DNA of 37,506 nucleotides from assembly GCA_937973995.1 (NCBI GenBank), contig CALJIQ010000248.1, positions 1 through 37,506 on the forward strand, given 5' to 3'. The translations under genes were made by a program, and so were the position numbers. Shown here piece after piece: positions 12,580 to 37,439 of the stretch. Source of the DNA: an uncultured Saprospiraceae bacterium (GTDB taxonomy: Bacteria > Bacteroidota > Bacteroidia > Chitinophagales > Saprospiraceae). The notes under the pieces were generated by a model that was not told the origin of the DNA, made no database searches, and saw nothing but the letters and a program-made list of their open reading frames with translations. The first letter of the stretch is position 1. Each line of letters begins with the position of its first letter.

Positions 12580-14799
12580 ATGAGTTGTTTTTTAATACAG
12601 GCCTTATGGGCATTAGGAGCTTCCTTACTAGGTGGATTAATTGGTTGGATTTGGAGAGGCCAAAAAGAGGTAGATGAATATACGATTAAAAACTCTTCTT
12701 TCTATAAGCAATTGGAAGGAAATTATCAGGGTACTTTAACCAAGCACCAATCCTTAGAACAGGAACATTCTCAATTAGATATAAACTATAAAAAGTTATT
12801 AGCAAAACGAGAACAAGCGGCTAGTGCGCCTGTCCATTTAGTTGGTGGCGGTGCTACGGAAACGGTGATAAAAGAAGTAGAAAAAATCGTAGAAGTTCCA
12901 GTAGAAGTAATAAAAGAGGTAGAAAAACTAGTGGAGGTAATAAAGGAAGTAGAGGTGATAAGAGAAGTAGAAAAACCTGTGGAGGTAATCAAAGAGGTTC
13001 AGAATTTTGTAGAAATCGAAAAGTTAGTGGAGAAACCAATTGAGGTAATTAGAGAAGTAGAGAAAATTGTAGAAGTCCCTGTTGAAATTATCAAAGAGGT
13101 AGAAAGAATAGTAGAGATTGAAAAACCTGTGGAAGTGATAAAGGAAGTGGAGGTGATACGAGAAGTGGAAAAGAGAGTGGAAGTACCTGTGGAAGTGATA
13201 AAGGAAGTCGAAGTAATAAAAGAAGTACCCGTAGAGGTGATAAAAGAAGTGGAAATAATTAGAGAGGTAGAGAAACGTGTAGAAGTACCAGTGGAGGTGA
13301 TCAAAGAAGTAGAAAAGATCGTAGAGGTGCCGGTAGAGATCATTAAAGAATCGATTAGAGAAGTGCCAGTAGAGGTGATACGAGAAGTGGAAAAGAGAAT
13401 TGAAGTACCCGTGGAGGTAATCAGAGAAGTAGAGGTGATAAAAGAAGTGGAGGTGATACGGGAAGTCCCTAGAAATGTATTCAATGAAATAGAAGTAGTG
13501 AAAGAGGTAGAAAGGATCGTGGAAGTACCAGTAGAAGTGATTAAAGAGGTGGAAGTAATAAAAGAAATTCCTGTAGAGATAATTAAAGAAGTGGAGAAAA
13601 GAGTAGAAGTACCCGTGGAGAAGATAAAGGAGGTAGAAATAATCAGAGAAGTAGAAAAGCCGATAGAGATCATCAAAGAGATAGAGGTCATTAAAGAAAT
13701 TCCTGTGGAGGTGATTAAAGAGGTAGTAGTAGAGAAAATAGTAGAGGTACCAGTCGAGAAGATCAAGGAAGTGGAAGTGGTAAAAGAAATCATCAAGGTG
13801 GTGGAGAAGCCAGTAGAGATCATCAAAGAGATAGAGGTCATTAAGGAAATTCCTGTGGAGGTGATTAAAGAAGTAGAAGTAGAAAAAATAGTAGTGGTAG
13901 AAAAAATAATTGAACGGCCGATTGAAGTAATCAAGGAAGTAGAGAAAATCGTGGAAGTGCCAGTTGAAGTAATCAAAGAAATTGAGATTGAAAAAATCAT
14001 CGAACAACCTATTGAGATTATCAAAGAGGTGCTAGTTGAAAAGGTAGTTGAAGTACCGACCCCTATTGCAAAGGAGATTCTTACCGTGGTCGAGGAAACC
14101 ATCTCTGAGAATGGACATGCGGAAATATCAGATTTACCGGTAGCGGAATATGGTTTTGCTTCCTTATCGTATGATATTTTTGCGGATGCATCGACTAGTT
14201 CGATTGATATGGTGAACCCTGACAAAGAAGGGGAAATTGGTGGCGGAAAGTATTATTATTGGAAAGGATCAGATGATCTTTTTTATTTTTCTATTGCTGA
14301 TGGAGATGGAAAGATTCTAATATTTAGTGATGGATTCTCCAATCAACGAATCCGTAAGAATGCGCTTAGCTATATCCAATCTTTATTATATCGCTTAGAA
14401 AATTATCGCCCATATACCCAACCAGAGGGTGGATACTATTTCCATTTTTATGGCAGTGATGGGGAGATATATGGAAGTAGTCCTACCTACGCTTCTCAAG
14501 ATGCCTTGGACAATTCTATTAATTACTTGATTGTCAATAATCCTCGGAAGGATGATCTCAAATTAATTGAAGGAATCGGACCTAAGATAGAATCGCTGCT
14601 CTATGAAGCGGGTATTATCACTTGGGAAAGTTTGGCAAAGGCGTCGATAGAAACTCTACGAGCTATTTTAGATAATGCTGGTTCTCGCTATCGCATGCAC
14701 AATCCTTCTACTTGGCCAGCCCAAGCAGATTTAGCGAATCAAGGGAAGTGGAAAGAATTGAAGGATTGGCAAGAGGAACTGCATGGTGGGAAAGCCTAG
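12580..14799 (+). CDS. Membrane-anchored protein with ~400-residue V-E-V-I-K repeats, YegP-like domains and a helix-hairpin-helix end
   Basis: The 739-residue protein has an N-terminal membrane segment (about residues 5-26, ending in WIWRGQKE) and a short helical stretch. Residues ~96-494 are a degenerate repeat of 7 or 14 residues (units like VEVPVEVIKEVEKI and VEVIREVEKR), an alternating hydrophobic/acidic pattern with periodic K/R. Two modules resembling DUF1508/YegP repeats follow (~550-655; YFSIADGDGKILIFSDGF and YFHFYGSDGEIYGSS). Last comes an HhH-like domain (LIEGIGPKIESLLYEAGI, ~662-705). The repeat part may form an extended stalk or coiled rod that displays the C-terminal domains. 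The preceding OmpA-family gene supports an envelope role. Exact function is unknown. Long minus-strand frames across the repeat are artefacts of its codon pattern. Confidence 0.82.
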   Translation: MSCFLIQALWALGASLLGGLIGWIWRGQKEVDEYTIKNSSFYKQLEGNYQGTLTKHQSLEQEHSQLDINYKKLLAKREQAASAPVHLVGGGATETVIKEVEKIVEVPVEVIKEVEKLVEVIKEVEVIREVEKPVEVIKEVQNFVEIEKLVEKPIEVIREVEKIVEVPVEIIKEVERIVEIEKPVEVIKEVEVIREVEKRVEVPVEVIKEVEVIKEVPVEVIKEVEIIREVEKRVEVPVEVIKEVEKIVEVPVEIIKESIREVPVEVIREVEKRIEVPVEVIREVEVIKEVEVIREVPRNVFNEIEVVKEVERIVEVPVEVIKEVEVIKEIPVEIIKEVEKRVEVPVEKIKEVEIIREVEKPIEIIKEIEVIKEIPVEVIKEVVVEKIVEVPVEKIKEVEVVKEIIKVVEKPVEIIKEIEVIKEIPVEVIKEVEVEKIVVVEKIIERPIEVIKEVEKIVEVPVEVIKEIEIEKIIEQPIEIIKEVLVEKVVEVPTPIAKEILTVVEETISENGHAEISDLPVAEYGFASLSYDIFADASTSSIDMVNPDKEGEIGGGKYYYWKGSDDLFYFSIADGDGKILIFSDGFSNQRIRKNALSYIQSLLYRLENYRPYTQPEGGYYFHFYGSDGEIYGSSPTYASQDALDNSINYLIVNNPRKDDLKLIEGIGPKIESLLYEAGIITWESLAKASIETLRAILDNAGSRYRMHNPSTWPAQADLANQGKWKELKDWQEELHGGKA

Positions 14800-17661: not shown

Positions 17662-17765
17662 ATCCAGCTATGAAAAAACATACTATCAGCATTAATAAAA
17701 AACCCCTACTGAAGTCAAATTTTGTCAAATGCAAAAATTTTGTCGATTTTTGACCACTCAAAAGC

Positions 17766-17824
17766 CACAAAACCATAATGCCACAACACCATAACACCAC
17801 CATATTACCACAACACCAACCCTC
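17766..17824. repeat. CCANAANN octamer array ending at the nif3-like start codon
   Basis: Units CCACAAAA, CCATAATG, CCACAACA, CCATAACA, a partial CCA, CCATATTA, CCACAACA and CCAACCTC run from 17766 to 17824, and the ATG of the Nif3-like gene begins at 17825. The array is therefore the immediate 5' leader, with no Shine-Dalgarno sequence. Confidence 0.8.
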
Positions 17825-19815: not shown

Positions 19816-19883
19816 ATTGGTCATTGGTCATTAGTATAACTCACTACTGACCAATGACTACTGACTACTGACCAATGACCAAT
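19816..19883. repeat. Inverted heptamer array (GGTCATT / GACCAAT) before glnS
   Basis: ATTGGTCATTGGTC (19816-19829) is a perfect inverted copy of GACCAATGACCAAT (19870-19883), with further GACTACT and GACCAAT heptamers between. The right arm ends four bases before the glnS ATG (19888), so it forms the 5' leader. The same heptamers flank the four-helix-bundle gene at 28585-28956. Confidence 0.8.
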
Positions 19884-27636: not shown

Positions 27637-27694
27637 GATAATATTTTAGATGATGGGTAGCTTATGCGGGATGAAATGCGGTTTTCTATTGGTT

Positions 27695-27798
27695 CATTGT
27701 TCCATTGATCCATTGTCTCATTGATCCATTGTCTCATTGATCCATTGTCTCATTGATCCATTGTCTCATTGATCCATTGTCTCATTGTTCTATTGTCA
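27695..27798. repeat. 13-unit octamer array (CATTGATC / CATTGTCT)
   Basis: Thirteen contiguous 8-bp units alternate mainly CATTGATC and CATTGTCT, with CATTGTTC and TATTGTCA at the edges. The phase is kept exactly for 104 bp. Confidence 0.93.
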
Positions 27799-27917: not shown

Positions 27918-28044
27918 CATTGATTCATTGTCTCATTGAGCTTAGTATCAATGGGACAATGGGACAATGGGACAATGGGACAATGGGACAATGGGACAAT
28001 GGGACAATAGGACAATAGAACAATAGAACAGTGAAACAATAGAA
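27918..28044. repeat. Inverted octamer array (CATTGTCT x3, then CAATGGGA x12)
   Basis: Three CATTG units (27918-27941) are followed by a 7-base break and then twelve contiguous units from 27949 to 28044. Seven of these read CAATGGGA, then CAATAGGA, CAATAGAA and CAGTGAAA variants. They are the reverse complement family of the left array. The last unit ends four bases before the asparaginase stop codon. Confidence 0.93.
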
Positions 28045-28540: not shown

Positions 28541-28577
28541 GGATTGGTCATTAGTCATTCAGTCATTGGTCATTGGT
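28541..28577. repeat. Heptamer array (GGTCATT) between asparaginase and S23-type genes
   Basis: ATTGGTCATTAGTCATT (28543-28559) is followed by CAGTCATTGGTCATTGG. The first 17 bases are a perfect inverted copy of 29019-29035 on the other side of the S23-type gene. The asparaginase ATG directly adjoins the array. Confidence 0.85.
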
Positions 28578-28584
28578 AAAGCTG

Positions 28585-28956
28585 TCAACTATTATTAGAT
28601 GGTCCAATGGTACTGATGTAGGCGTTTAGCATTTTTAGTAGGATGTTTAACTCCTTTTTTAAAAATTCATACCTTTCATCGGATACTAAATTTCTATTAT
28701 TGGCTTTTTCAAGCCATGTTTGAGTTTCAGTCAGTGACCCTCTGCTGTAATAACAAAATTTTTTGTTCTCTTTGAAATGAAATCTTCCATATCCTTCAGA
28801 GATATTTGCTGCAATGGAATCTGCACTTCTAACCCACTGTTTTCCGAGTGTATCCCTCTCATAATATTGCCATTCTGAAACAATTTTCCATATCCACTCT
28901 CCAATTTTCATAGCTTTTCCATACACCTTTAATTCATTTAATTTTAAAGATTGCAT
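28585..28956 (-). CDS. Four-helix-bundle protein (23S rRNA-intervening-sequence / S23 family)
   Basis: Taking ATG at 28956 gives 123 residues starting MQSLKLNELKVYGKAM. The family signature is clear: WVRSADSIAANISEGYGRFH, FCYYSRGSLTETQTWLEKA, and a last helix ending LLKMLNAYIS. These proteins (TIGR02436) were named for genes inside 23S rRNA intervening sequences, but most copies, like this one, stand alone. They share a fold with the Avd accessory proteins of diversity-generating retroelements and other retron-associated bundles. No reverse transcriptase or variable repeat is present in the window. The gene is enclosed by inverted heptamer arrays, suggesting that it moved as a unit. An in-frame extension upstream (to 29034) translates the array and is rejected. 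Confidence 0.88.
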   Translation of the reverse strand: MQSLKLNELKVYGKAMKIGEWIWKIVSEWQYYERDTLGKQWVRSADSIAANISEGYGRFHFKENKKFCYYSRGSLTETQTWLEKANNRNLVSDERYEFLKKELNILLKMLNAYISTIGPSNNS

Positions 28957-28980: not shown

Positions 28981-29040
28981 TGACCATTGAGTCATATAAA
29001 CATCTAAACTAATGACAAAATGACTAATGACCAATGACTA
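28981..29040. repeat. Heptamer array (AATGACC/GACTAAT) overlapping the dapD stop codon
   Basis: AATGACTAATGACCAAT (29019-29035) plus GACTAA and TGACCATTGAGTCAT form the array. The dapD stop (TAG on the minus strand, 29040-29038) is itself part of the terminal heptamer. The 17-bp core is an inverted copy of 28543-28559. Confidence 0.85.
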
Positions 29041-36203: not shown

Positions 36204-36270
36204 TTTTTAAAAGATTACTCCAAACCATTTGAACAATATTTTAATGGTTTAACAAGTGTGTGTTTTTGAA

Positions 36271-36310
36271 CCAGTCAGCCACAAAGGTGTGTTGACTGGT
36301 TTTTTTTATT
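36271..36310 (+). terminator. Rho-independent terminator after the small T9SS gene
   Basis: AACCAGTCA (from 36271) pairs with a TTGACTG arm near 36294-36303, with CAC/GTG inside the loop, followed directly by a long T-run. It is the clearest plus-strand terminator in this part of the window. Confidence 0.85.
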
Positions 36311-36321
36311 TTTGTGATCTT

Positions 36322-36353
<32 letters not shown>

Positions 36354-36402: not shown

Positions 36403-36490
36403 CCACAACACCACAACACCACAACACCACAACGCCACAACGCCACAACGCCACAACACCATAATGCCACAACACCATAACACCACAATG
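36403..36490. repeat. 11-unit CCACAACA octamer array that contains the start codon of the next gene
   Basis: Eleven contiguous 8-bp units: CCACAACA x3, CCACAACG x3, CCACAACA, CCATAATG, CCACAACA, CCATAACA, CCACAATG. The last three bases are the ATG used by the pseudouridine synthase; the eighth unit holds another in-frame ATG (36464-36466). Same family as the arrays at 17391-17445 (inverted) and 17766-17824. Confidence 0.93.
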
Positions 36491-37375
36491 CCCATCCTAG
36501 AAACCCACATCGTTCCAGAAAATGTGAGTGGTATTCGCCTAAGCGATTACGCTATTGGTATTTTTACAATTATTCCTACTCGAAAGGGAATGAAAAAAGC
36601 GATTAAAAAAGGAGCAGTTTATATTGATGGAGAGCTTGCTACTACGGGTAGGTGGGTGGTTACGGGACAAGTGATACAGTTAATGGAAGTAGTCCAAAAG
36701 CCATCAAAGGTTTATAAAATGGACCTAGAAATTATTTATGAAGATGAAGAAATAGCAGTCATTAATAAGCCTGCGGGGATCGTGGTCAGTGGGAATCAGT
36801 TTCGGACGGTTCAAAACGCTTTACCTAATAATCTGTCAATATCCACTGCTATAGATGCTTGTCCATCTCCTTTGCCTGTGCATCGATTGGATTATTCGAC
36901 CAGTGGGTTATTGTTAATAGCGAAAACAAAAAGTGCAAGACGGTTGTTGGGAAAAGCATTTGAACTTCATCAGGTGCAGAAAGAATATCAAGCAGTGGTT
37001 ATCGGAAAACCTCCTGAAGAAGGTGTCATCCAAGAACCCATCCAACGAAAAAAATCTCAAACTTTATTTAAAACGATACAAACAATTCCTTCCTTAAAAA
37101 ATGGTCATCTATCCTTACTGCAATTAACCCCTTTGACTGGAAGAATGCATCAATTAAGAATACATCTATCAGAAGTAGGCTTCCCCATTTTGGGAGATAA
37201 ATTGTATGGAACAACTGGAATGGTTTTAAAAGGGAAAGGATTATTTTTATGTGCGGTAGGGTTGCAATTTTCTCACCCAAAAACTGGAGAATTAATGAAA
37301 TTTAGAATTCCAAATCCTCCAAAATTTCAAACCTTTATGGAACGAGAACAAAAGAGATGGGAAAGATATCATTGA
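36488..37375 (+). CDS. RluA-family pseudouridine synthase
   Basis: With ATG at 36488 the protein is 295 residues. An S4-like RNA-binding part comes first (MKKAIKKGAVYIDGELATTG, then WVVTGQVIQL). The catalytic domain shows INKPAGIVVSG, the RluA signature HRLDYSTSGLLLIAKT with the nucleophilic Asp, and the closing LTGRMHQLRIHLSEVGFPIL. The enzyme isomerises uridine in rRNA or tRNA; the motif set does not separate the RluA, RluC and RluD targets. The in-frame extension upstream (to 36314) translates the GGAGTCA and CCACAACA arrays (Thr/His/Asn/Pro-rich) and is rejected. The gene's first codon belongs to the upstream octamer array and its last codon plus stop to the downstream one. Confidence 0.9.
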   Translation: MPILETHIVPENVSGIRLSDYAIGIFTIIPTRKGMKKAIKKGAVYIDGELATTGRWVVTGQVIQLMEVVQKPSKVYKMDLEIIYEDEEIAVINKPAGIVVSGNQFRTVQNALPNNLSISTAIDACPSPLPVHRLDYSTSGLLLIAKTKSARRLLGKAFELHQVQKEYQAVVIGKPPEEGVIQEPIQRKKSQTLFKTIQTIPSLKNGHLSLLQLTPLTGRMHQLRIHLSEVGFPILGDKLYGTTGMVLKGKGLFLCAVGLQFSHPKTGELMKFRIPNPPKFQTFMEREQKRWERYH

Positions 37376-37409
37376 TCTATTGTCTCATTGATCTATTGTT
37401 CCATTGTTG
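37370..37409. repeat. CATTGATC octamer array overlapping the pseudouridine-synthase stop codon
   Basis: CATTGATC, TATTGTCT, CATTGATC, TATTGTTC and CATTGTTG run in exact 8-bp phase from 37370 to 37409. The first unit supplies the final His codon (CAT) and the stop (TGA). Same family as 27695-28044. Confidence 0.88.
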
Positions 37410-37439
37410 AGTCCACTCTAAAAACACAATTTGGTAAAC

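Follow-up and report, generated by a model that had tools for sequence, protein, structure and literature searches.

Background

Tandem arrays of heptamers between genes were first described in cyanobacteria, where, to our knowledge, they have been known for decades without an explained origin; likewise, we know of no role assigned to the IVP/S23 family of proteins (PF05635/TIGR02436), which are annotated as "23S rRNA-intervening sequence" or "four helix bundle" proteins. Here we analyze a stretch of 37,506 nucleotides from an uncultured Saprospiraceae bacterium of the phylum Bacteroidota (GenBank assembly GCA_937973995.1, contig CALJIQ010000248.1, positions 1 to 37,506 of the forward strand; hereinafter, the window), in which both the start codon and the stop codon of a gene for an RluA-family pseudouridine synthase lie within arrays of octamer repeats. 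We propose that these arrays are probably the arms of small mobile stem-loop elements, of which the full copies carry an IVP gene.

Several described systems share features with this arrangement. In the REP/RAYT systems, many short palindromes occur alongside a few full copies that flank one small gene. The REP families are treated in PMC3733652. In Coxiella burnetii, an intervening sequence (IVS) of 428 nt is embedded in the 23S rRNA and contains the S23p gene in the loop of its stem (Warrier 2016, PMC4990558); the same work calls the function and origin of the IVS unclear, and its mobility has been proposed and long been suspected. Heptamer repeats that precede start codons have been reported in Beggiatoaceae, Cyanobacteria and Bacteroidetes, with a role in regulation or rearrangement suggested (MacGregor 2015, PMC4679880), and P6b of the Nostoc trnL intron has been described as a stem-loop made of heptanucleotides (Kaasalainen 2015, PMC4476775). 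The IVP family is itself related to Avd, a protein of the diversity-generating retroelements (DGRs; PMC10053308).

Results and discussion

Repeat arrays at the boundaries of the RluA gene

The array upstream of the RluA gene is 88 bp long and consists of 11 exact octamers, namely CCACAACA three times, CCACAACG three times, CCACAACA, CCATAATG, CCACAACA, CCATAACA and CCACAATG, with the ATG (36488-36490) inside the last unit; the same start is picked by an independent dicodon gene caller. Another ATG, in unit 8, lies in frame 24 bases (three units) upstream, with no intervening stop. At the opposite end, the final codon and the stop (CAT TGA, 37370-37375) fall within the first of the five units of a different octamer array (CATTGATC TATTGTCT CATTGATC TATTGTTC CATTGTTG). 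The scores assigned by Tandem Repeats Finder are 136 for the 5' array and 62 for the 3' array. The first-pass annotation of this DNA had pointed out all three of these features, the start codon in the last of 11 units, the in-frame ATG three units upstream and the stop codon in the second array, and the letters bear it out.

The further idea that the arrays make or control the boundaries of the gene is not supported. In six RluA orthologues from the same genus (58-63% identity), the start codon, either ATG or TTG, occupies the same column of the alignment and no array is present; the C-termini of the same-genus orthologues also coincide to within a few residues. Hence the position of the ATG is older than the array, which came against an already existing start. 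As the observation that would undo its claim, the annotation had named relatives with the same ATG and stop and no array, together with an octamer match due to chance; relatives of this kind are found as far as the ATG is concerned, but the octamers are not a chance match and belong to a genome-wide family, with 195 double octamers of the CCACAATG type in the genome compared to 11 for the reversed control.

The scale of this phenomenon became apparent from a census of arrays in 61 stretches of the 562-contig draft genome (94.6% complete), which add up to 0.69 Mb or 13% of the genome, contain 531 called genes and were, for one half, picked for carrying octamers. The genome holds hundreds of intergenic arrays with 7-bp or 8-bp units, many of which touch stop codons and some of which touch starts. 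In the census, such an array overlaps or abuts the stop codon of approximately 23 of the 531 genes and overlaps the start codon of 3-5; only one of the 117 heptamer arrays, and none of the 59 octamer arrays, is located inside a gene. Under independence, about one gene per genome is expected to be touched at both ends, so that the double contact is not exceptional here and is a by-product of the genome-wide arrays.

Arrays are paired in inverted orientation

Where two arrays share an intergenic gap, they are inverted copies of one repeat family around a short loop. Examples of left arms are AGGAGTC, AGTCATT, TTATTGA, TTTTGAA, AATTGAG, TGTTTATT, CATTGTTC and TGGCATTG, and the right arm is the reverse complement. 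Among adjacent arrays, for which tandem repetition was the sole criterion of selection, 39 of the 49 pairs are inverted and of the same family and none are direct; when the right arms are shuffled among loci, the mean number of inverted same-family pairs is 5.3 and the maximum in 5000 trials is 14. A side rule holds across loci for the arms nearest to genes, with direct matches prevailing on the same side (184 vs 11) and inverted matches on the other side (157 vs 8).

Two further possibilities were considered and discarded. Covariation of the arms at the level of unit variants is absent in the unbiased set of arrays, and the signal seen in hairpins selected by pairing score is a selection bias. 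A heptamer vocabulary shared across the phylum was not found either: three tandem copies of AGGAGTC occur in 3 of 197 other genomes, and the reversed control also occurs in 3 others. Separately, the TTATTGA hairpins (L126, L128, L132, L133, L137, L141, L144 and L148) have conserved loops (TTCCAGACGCTACTGAACACGCCTAATTAGCT and a second type), in contrast to the variable loops of the other families, which looks like the recent dispersal of one gene-less copy.

IVP genes reside in the loops of inverted array pairs

A search of the whole genome with PF05635 yielded 11 matches, nine of them full length, and all nine full-length genes are located in the loop of an inverted array pair, each with a repeat family of its own. 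A flank score of at least 14 is reached by 9/9 IVP genes compared to 11 of the 466 other genes (Fisher test, 5e-14). The coupling recurs in G073, a genome from the same order that is closed and comprises a single contig; here, 9/12 IVP genes but only 4/285 other genes are flanked in this manner (3e-12), and the coupling is therefore not an artefact of metagenome assembly. At the family level, 23 of 33 IVP loci, and none of the 32 control loci, have a flank score of at least 16; at the phylum level, 18 of 30 IVP loci score at least 14, with the G-rich arm coming first in 17 and the C-rich arm in none. The IVP/S23 family is represented in 116 of the 148 Bacteroidota genomes sampled; its conserved residues are few, mainly Q, S and N along with the motif NIAEG. 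No match to PF05635 was detected in phages. The arms of one IVP locus (L345, in genome G023) consist of 9-nt units (GTTGTTGGA), so that unit length is not confined to 7 and 8.

Other genes were examined as potential cargo of the arrays and rejected as such: where their flanks are paired, the genes are ordinary ones enclosed by hairpins that are independent of each other, in addition to a DUF559-like and a RAYT-like gene with repeats of their own. Specifically, a gene for a DUF559-like endonuclease (L145, 2831-3217) is flanked by inverted GGGGAGTACCTT, and a gene for a Y1-transposase-like protein of the RAYT type (L164, 4010-4732) is flanked by inverted AGAGCTAACACAA. A RAYT is not a candidate for the mobilizer of the arrays, given that the four Y1_Tnp (PF01797) matches lie on other contigs, not in the array loops, and the genes in the loops belong to PF05635; an origin through a reverse transcriptase, whether telomerase-like or DGR-like, was discarded because no RVT_1 domain is encoded in this genome at its 94.6% completeness.

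When 193 arrays sampled in this genome are compared with IVP arms, 82% find a match among those of the nine resident genes, and 5, 8 and 15% among those from three other genomes; similarly, 6 of the 12 periodic hairpins of G073 match the arms of its own IVP genes and 0-1 match those of others. The RluA 5' array finds its sole match in the arms that flank the IVP gene of contig C259 (L269; score 19, others 4-6) and can be read as an A/C-rich right arm that belongs to the TGGCATTG/CCACAATG element family. For the 3' array, the sole match is with the arms around the IVP gene of contig C445 (L273; score 16, others 4-6), and this array is best read as a left arm of the CATTG/CAATG element family. 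The AGGAGTC array farther upstream of RluA corresponds solely to the arms of a third gene, on contig C161 (L266; score 22, others 3-6). The notion of two unrelated arrays that flank one gene by chance is thus superseded by that of arms from two families of a single kind of element.

A precise insertion on a cyanobacterial plasmid

Plasmid-borne IVP genes are nearly all cyanobacterial, and 16 of the 18 examined are flanked by inverted repeats, in Cyanobacteria and in one representative each of Gemmatimonadota (Gemmatirosa) and Alphaproteobacteria (Azospirillum); nearly all of these repeats have 7-nt or 8-nt units, such as TAGGGAG in Nostoc edaphicum. In plasmid C of Trichormus variabilis, an IVP element that is located between two genes is absent from four plasmids of approximately 98% identity. 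The filled and empty sites differ by 428 bp, which comprise a 423-bp element and a 5-bp duplication, GTAAT, and the joined flanks are identical to the empty site: the junction reads AAAAA-GTAAT-(423 bp)-GTAAT-TAACAAATAAATATG in the filled site and AAAAAGTAATTAACAAATAAATATG in the empty one. The duplicated GTAAT contains a stop codon, TAA. The near-identical copy of this element in Scytonema is 14 bp shorter, a difference of two heptamers in the left arm, and the same site on a Nostoc plasmid contains what looks like a truncated element. The length variability of arrays that the first-pass annotation had supposed is accordingly seen here as the change of whole units. Other pairs of filled and empty sites (integrase/hypothetical, nrdB/nrdA, and Nostoc C052/N6) exhibit presence or absence between genes, with a stop codon at the junction in the case of C052.

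On some cyanobacterial plasmids, IVP elements are located between CRISPR genes, namely cas6 and cas4 in Anabaena 90 and Pseudanabaena, and cas10 and cmr3 in Picosynechococcus (L393, L400, L401). These elements, annotated as four helix bundle proteins, are probably passengers and might be misread as parts of the CRISPR system.

A putative mobile stem-loop element

We conclude, with a probability of roughly 0.77, that the RluA arrays represent the arms of small stem-loop elements, which are mobile and form a family. In its full form, such an element is approximately 400-500 bp long and consists of a G/T-rich tandem array of 7-nt or 8-nt units, an IVP gene, and an inverted, A/C-rich array. Gene-less copies of the same repeat family are scattered genome-wide as hairpins (about 70-90 bp) or as single arms and would be non-autonomous, with the IVP presumably acting in trans on the hairpins that carry its own repeat. 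Insertion would be tolerated between genes, so that arms land on stop codons and just ahead of starts, and arms would subsequently gain and lose units by slippage. Under this scenario, the gene-less hairpins of the present genome moved in the same way as the cyanobacterial element, and RluA, flanked by the right arm of one family and the left arm of another, would be bordered by the remnants of two insertions.

Several observations weigh against this conclusion. Pfam, NCBIfam and PADLOC place the IVP in no catalytic family, and the protein contains no known recombinase or nuclease domain. Mobility is demonstrated at a single site, on a cyanobacterial plasmid and not in this genome, and the divergence of the other pairs of filled and empty sites is too great for a clean duplication to be discerned. 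A hairpin family of nine members, CAAATTCC, has no matching IVP gene in the genome at its 94.6% completeness. The 5' array of RluA has no partner arm of the same family nearby, and, for the 3' array, any partner would lie beyond the end of the contig. At the level of unit variants, the two arms of a locus are no more alike than the arms of different loci (rank 0.49), so that they drift apart after they arise. Furthermore, across all 46 loci, the similarity of IVP proteins correlates weakly with that of their repeats (rho 0.12; 90 of 2000 permutations), and unit length does not follow IVP similarity (30/46 vs 26.2; 906 of 5000). In favor of the conclusion, when the 11 most similar IVP pairs between genomes are considered (identity of at least 63%), 10 share the repeat, and this, combined with the weak overall correlation, implies that a protein and its repeat stay associated for some time before they change.

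The coupling of IVP genes with hairpins also admits a regulatory interpretation, in which IVPs are host RNA-binding proteins, each with its own hairpin at the ends of many mRNAs, that control stability or translation, the elements being kept for this use. The presence of about one IVP per repeat family and the stability of the RNA stems (median of -30 kcal/mol) agree with such a regulon, and the A/C-rich array before RluA, which is unstructured as RNA (-0.2 kcal/mol), would suit a start site; translational regulation has been proposed for the TAACTGA repeats (MacGregor, PMC4679880). Near stop codons, hairpins exceed random placement in the same gaps (55 vs a mean of 42.1 and a maximum of 51 in 2000 trials), but there is no enrichment near start codons (24 vs 24.8), hairpins are also found in divergent gaps, and the targets are lineage-specific: for instance, the window hairpin that separates the gltX/glnS start from a conserved terminator was not observed between these two genes in the sister species. 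We therefore consider a regulon unlikely. The excess near stop codons, many hairpins being directly 3' of them, could also point to transcription terminators or protectors of mRNA 3' ends made of repeats. However, a T-run (at least 6 T in 10 nt) follows only 2 of 89 hairpins, ordinary conserved terminators are found beside the hairpins, and hairpins also precede starts in divergent gaps, so that we give this explanation hardly any credence.

The remaining explanations concern the arrays themselves. If these were neutral microsatellites, in which 7-bp and 8-bp units expand by slipped-strand mispairing and fill gaps as far as the flanking stop and start codons with no element involved, their almost wholly intergenic location and the independent drift of unit number and variants in the two arms would be readily explained, and heptamer-rich genomes have been noted before (Mrazek 2007, as cited by MacGregor 2015, PMC4679880). 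Slippage, however, predicts neither inverted pairs of the same family to the exclusion of direct ones, nor the enclosure of all nine full-length IVP genes by array pairs, nor the match of arrays to the arms of their own IVP genes, nor a precise insertion with a 5-bp duplication. It is distinctly improbable as the sole cause of the arrays, but likely the cause of their length change after insertion. The idea of phase or length variation, whereby the number of units would tune or switch the expression or the N-terminus of RluA, draws on the in-frame ATG in unit 8 and on the gain or loss of units in the cyanobacterial element; given that the orthologues have the same start without the array and that the same arrays adjoin all kinds of genes, it appears to be highly improbable.

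Returning to the mobile stem-loops, a broader proposal is that they constitute a distinct class of mobile elements, in which a protein that forms a four-helix bundle and has no known catalytic domain recognizes hairpins of tandem 7-nt and 8-nt repeats and spreads them between genes, each paralogue with its own sequence; such elements would be the source of intergenic heptamers in Cyanobacteria, Bacteroidota and other bacteria, and the parent of the 23S rRNA intervening sequences. We advance this proposal tentatively, with odds that seem to us just short of even. In the open-access literature, most subscription papers and preprints being outside the search, we found no report of a link between IVP genes and the heptamer or octamer repeats of intergenic gaps. 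The link provides both with a testable function: the IVP would be the protein encoded by a small, mobile stem-loop, of which the solo arrays would be the non-autonomous copies. It would explain the frequency with which the stop or start codon of a gene falls within a repeat unit, and makes stem-loop elements the likely source of the 7-8-letter repeats between bacterial genes.

Other features of the window

The features of the window are collected in Table 1. The 3' array of RluA is abutted by AGTCCACTCTAAAAA, which has 58 sites in the genome within one mismatch, compared to none in the control, and is paired at a distance of 149 bp. The corresponding element of approximately 149 bp, which resembles a miniature inverted-repeat transposable element (MITE), mostly lies directly against 7-bp or 8-bp arrays (L227-L256), and its two flanks can differ in array family, which suggests insertion of this element into or next to stem-loops. 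A longer relative of the MITE-like element may explain the end of the contig. The terminator of the gene upstream of RluA is accompanied by the same feature ahead of the RluA orthologues L090 and L091; in these three species, the terminator is preceded by a conserved stretch, ATGGTTTAACAAGTGTGTGTT (36230-36310 in the window together with the terminator), which is possibly a small RNA and has no Rfam match at the gathering threshold. Elsewhere in the window, the start codon of a gene for a 739-aa protein (12580-14799) abuts a heptamer array; the gene contains long degenerate DNA repeats (periods of 18-150 bp), and the protein shows weak matches to helix-hairpin-helix and DUF1508 domains.

Table 1. 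Repeat arrays, stem-loops and associated genes in the window
Feature	Positions	Strand	Remarks
Right arm, CCACAACA family	17764..17818	+	upstream of NIF3-type gene
Gene-less hairpin, ATTGGTC family	19816..19883	+	between conserved terminator and gltX/glnS start
Left arm, CATTG family	27684..27797	+	upstream of gatC
Right arm, CAATG family	27949..28042	+	immediately 3' of the stop of asparaginase-like gene
Left arm of IVP element, ATTGGTCATTAGTCATTCAGTCATTGGT	28543..28570	+	at start codon of asparaginase-like gene
IVP gene (PF05635/TIGR02436, 23S rRNA-intervening sequence / four helix bundle protein)	28585..28956	-	full element in the window
Right arm of IVP element, ACTAATGACAAAATGACTAATGACCAAT	29008..29035	+	array runs on over the TAG stop of dapD-like gene
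Stem-loop and T-run terminator of upstream gene	36270..36308	+	ordinary type; present also in G003 and G008
AGGAGTC heptamer array upstream of RluA	36323..36353	+	unpaired left arm, third element family
5' octamer array	36403..36490	+	11 units CCACAAYR, last 3 bases = start codon
Upstream in-frame ATG in unit 8	36464..36466	+	would add MPQHHNTT
RluA-family pseudouridine synthase gene	36488..37375	+	PF00849, E 2e-29; TIGR00005 over cut-off
3' octamer array	37370..37409	+	holds RluA last codon and stop
AGTCCACTCTAAAAA, terminal inverted repeat of separate MITE-like element (~149 bp) or longer relative	37410..37424	+	abuts 3' array

Comparison with known systems

The IVP elements most closely resemble the 23S rRNA IVS, in which a PF05635-type gene likewise occupies the loop of a stem formed by terminal inverted repeats and which is of nearly the same size (428 nt, compared to 423 bp for the cyanobacterial element). 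A further hallmark of the IVS is its removal from the transcript by RNase III. A PF05635/TIGR02436 gene is enclosed in the nine full elements but not in the solo arrays of RluA, and the terminal inverted repeats of the IVP elements can form a stem. In contrast to the IVS, these elements are not located in 23S rRNA genes: the copy in the window lies between the dapD-like and asparaginase-like genes, and the plasmid copies lie between protein-coding genes. They further differ from the IVS in that the stems consist of tandem 7-nt or 8-nt units, gene-less copies are numerous, each IVP gene has one repeat family, and insertion with target duplication is seen, at one cyanobacterial site.

The arrays also conform to the definition of short tandemly repeated repetitive (STRR) sequences, or long simple sequence repeats (tandem 7-nt repeats, with units of 5-11 nt, that are intergenic and present at many loci), and, like the TAACTGA heptamers, often end just before starts. 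The STRR and TAACTGA sequences were, however, described as direct repeats of unknown origin, whereas the arrays analyzed here are arms of inverted pairs that are tied to the IVP, with octamers also common. The P6b stem-loop of the Nostoc trnL intron is similarly a stem of complementary 7-nt repeats that gains and loses units, but it is part of a group I intron, contains no gene and has no demonstrated dispersal. With REP/RAYT, the elements share the combination of many short palindromic copies with a few full copies containing one small gene; the difference is that RAYT is a Y1 tyrosine transposase, whereas the IVP, a four-helix bundle, lacks any known catalytic domain and the arms are tandem repeats. 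Avd, a related four-helix bundle, is needed for retrohoming (PMC10053308) but depends on a reverse transcriptase, and none of the RVT_1 type was found in this genome. Compared to DNA transposons and MITEs, the elements have no recognizable transposase, the IVP gene being their only gene, but a precise empty site and a target duplication are observed at one site (GTAAT, in Trichormus and Scytonema, compared to the four empty plasmids), and the same architecture, an IVP gene between inverted arrays, recurs across Bacteroidota and on cyanobacterial plasmids.
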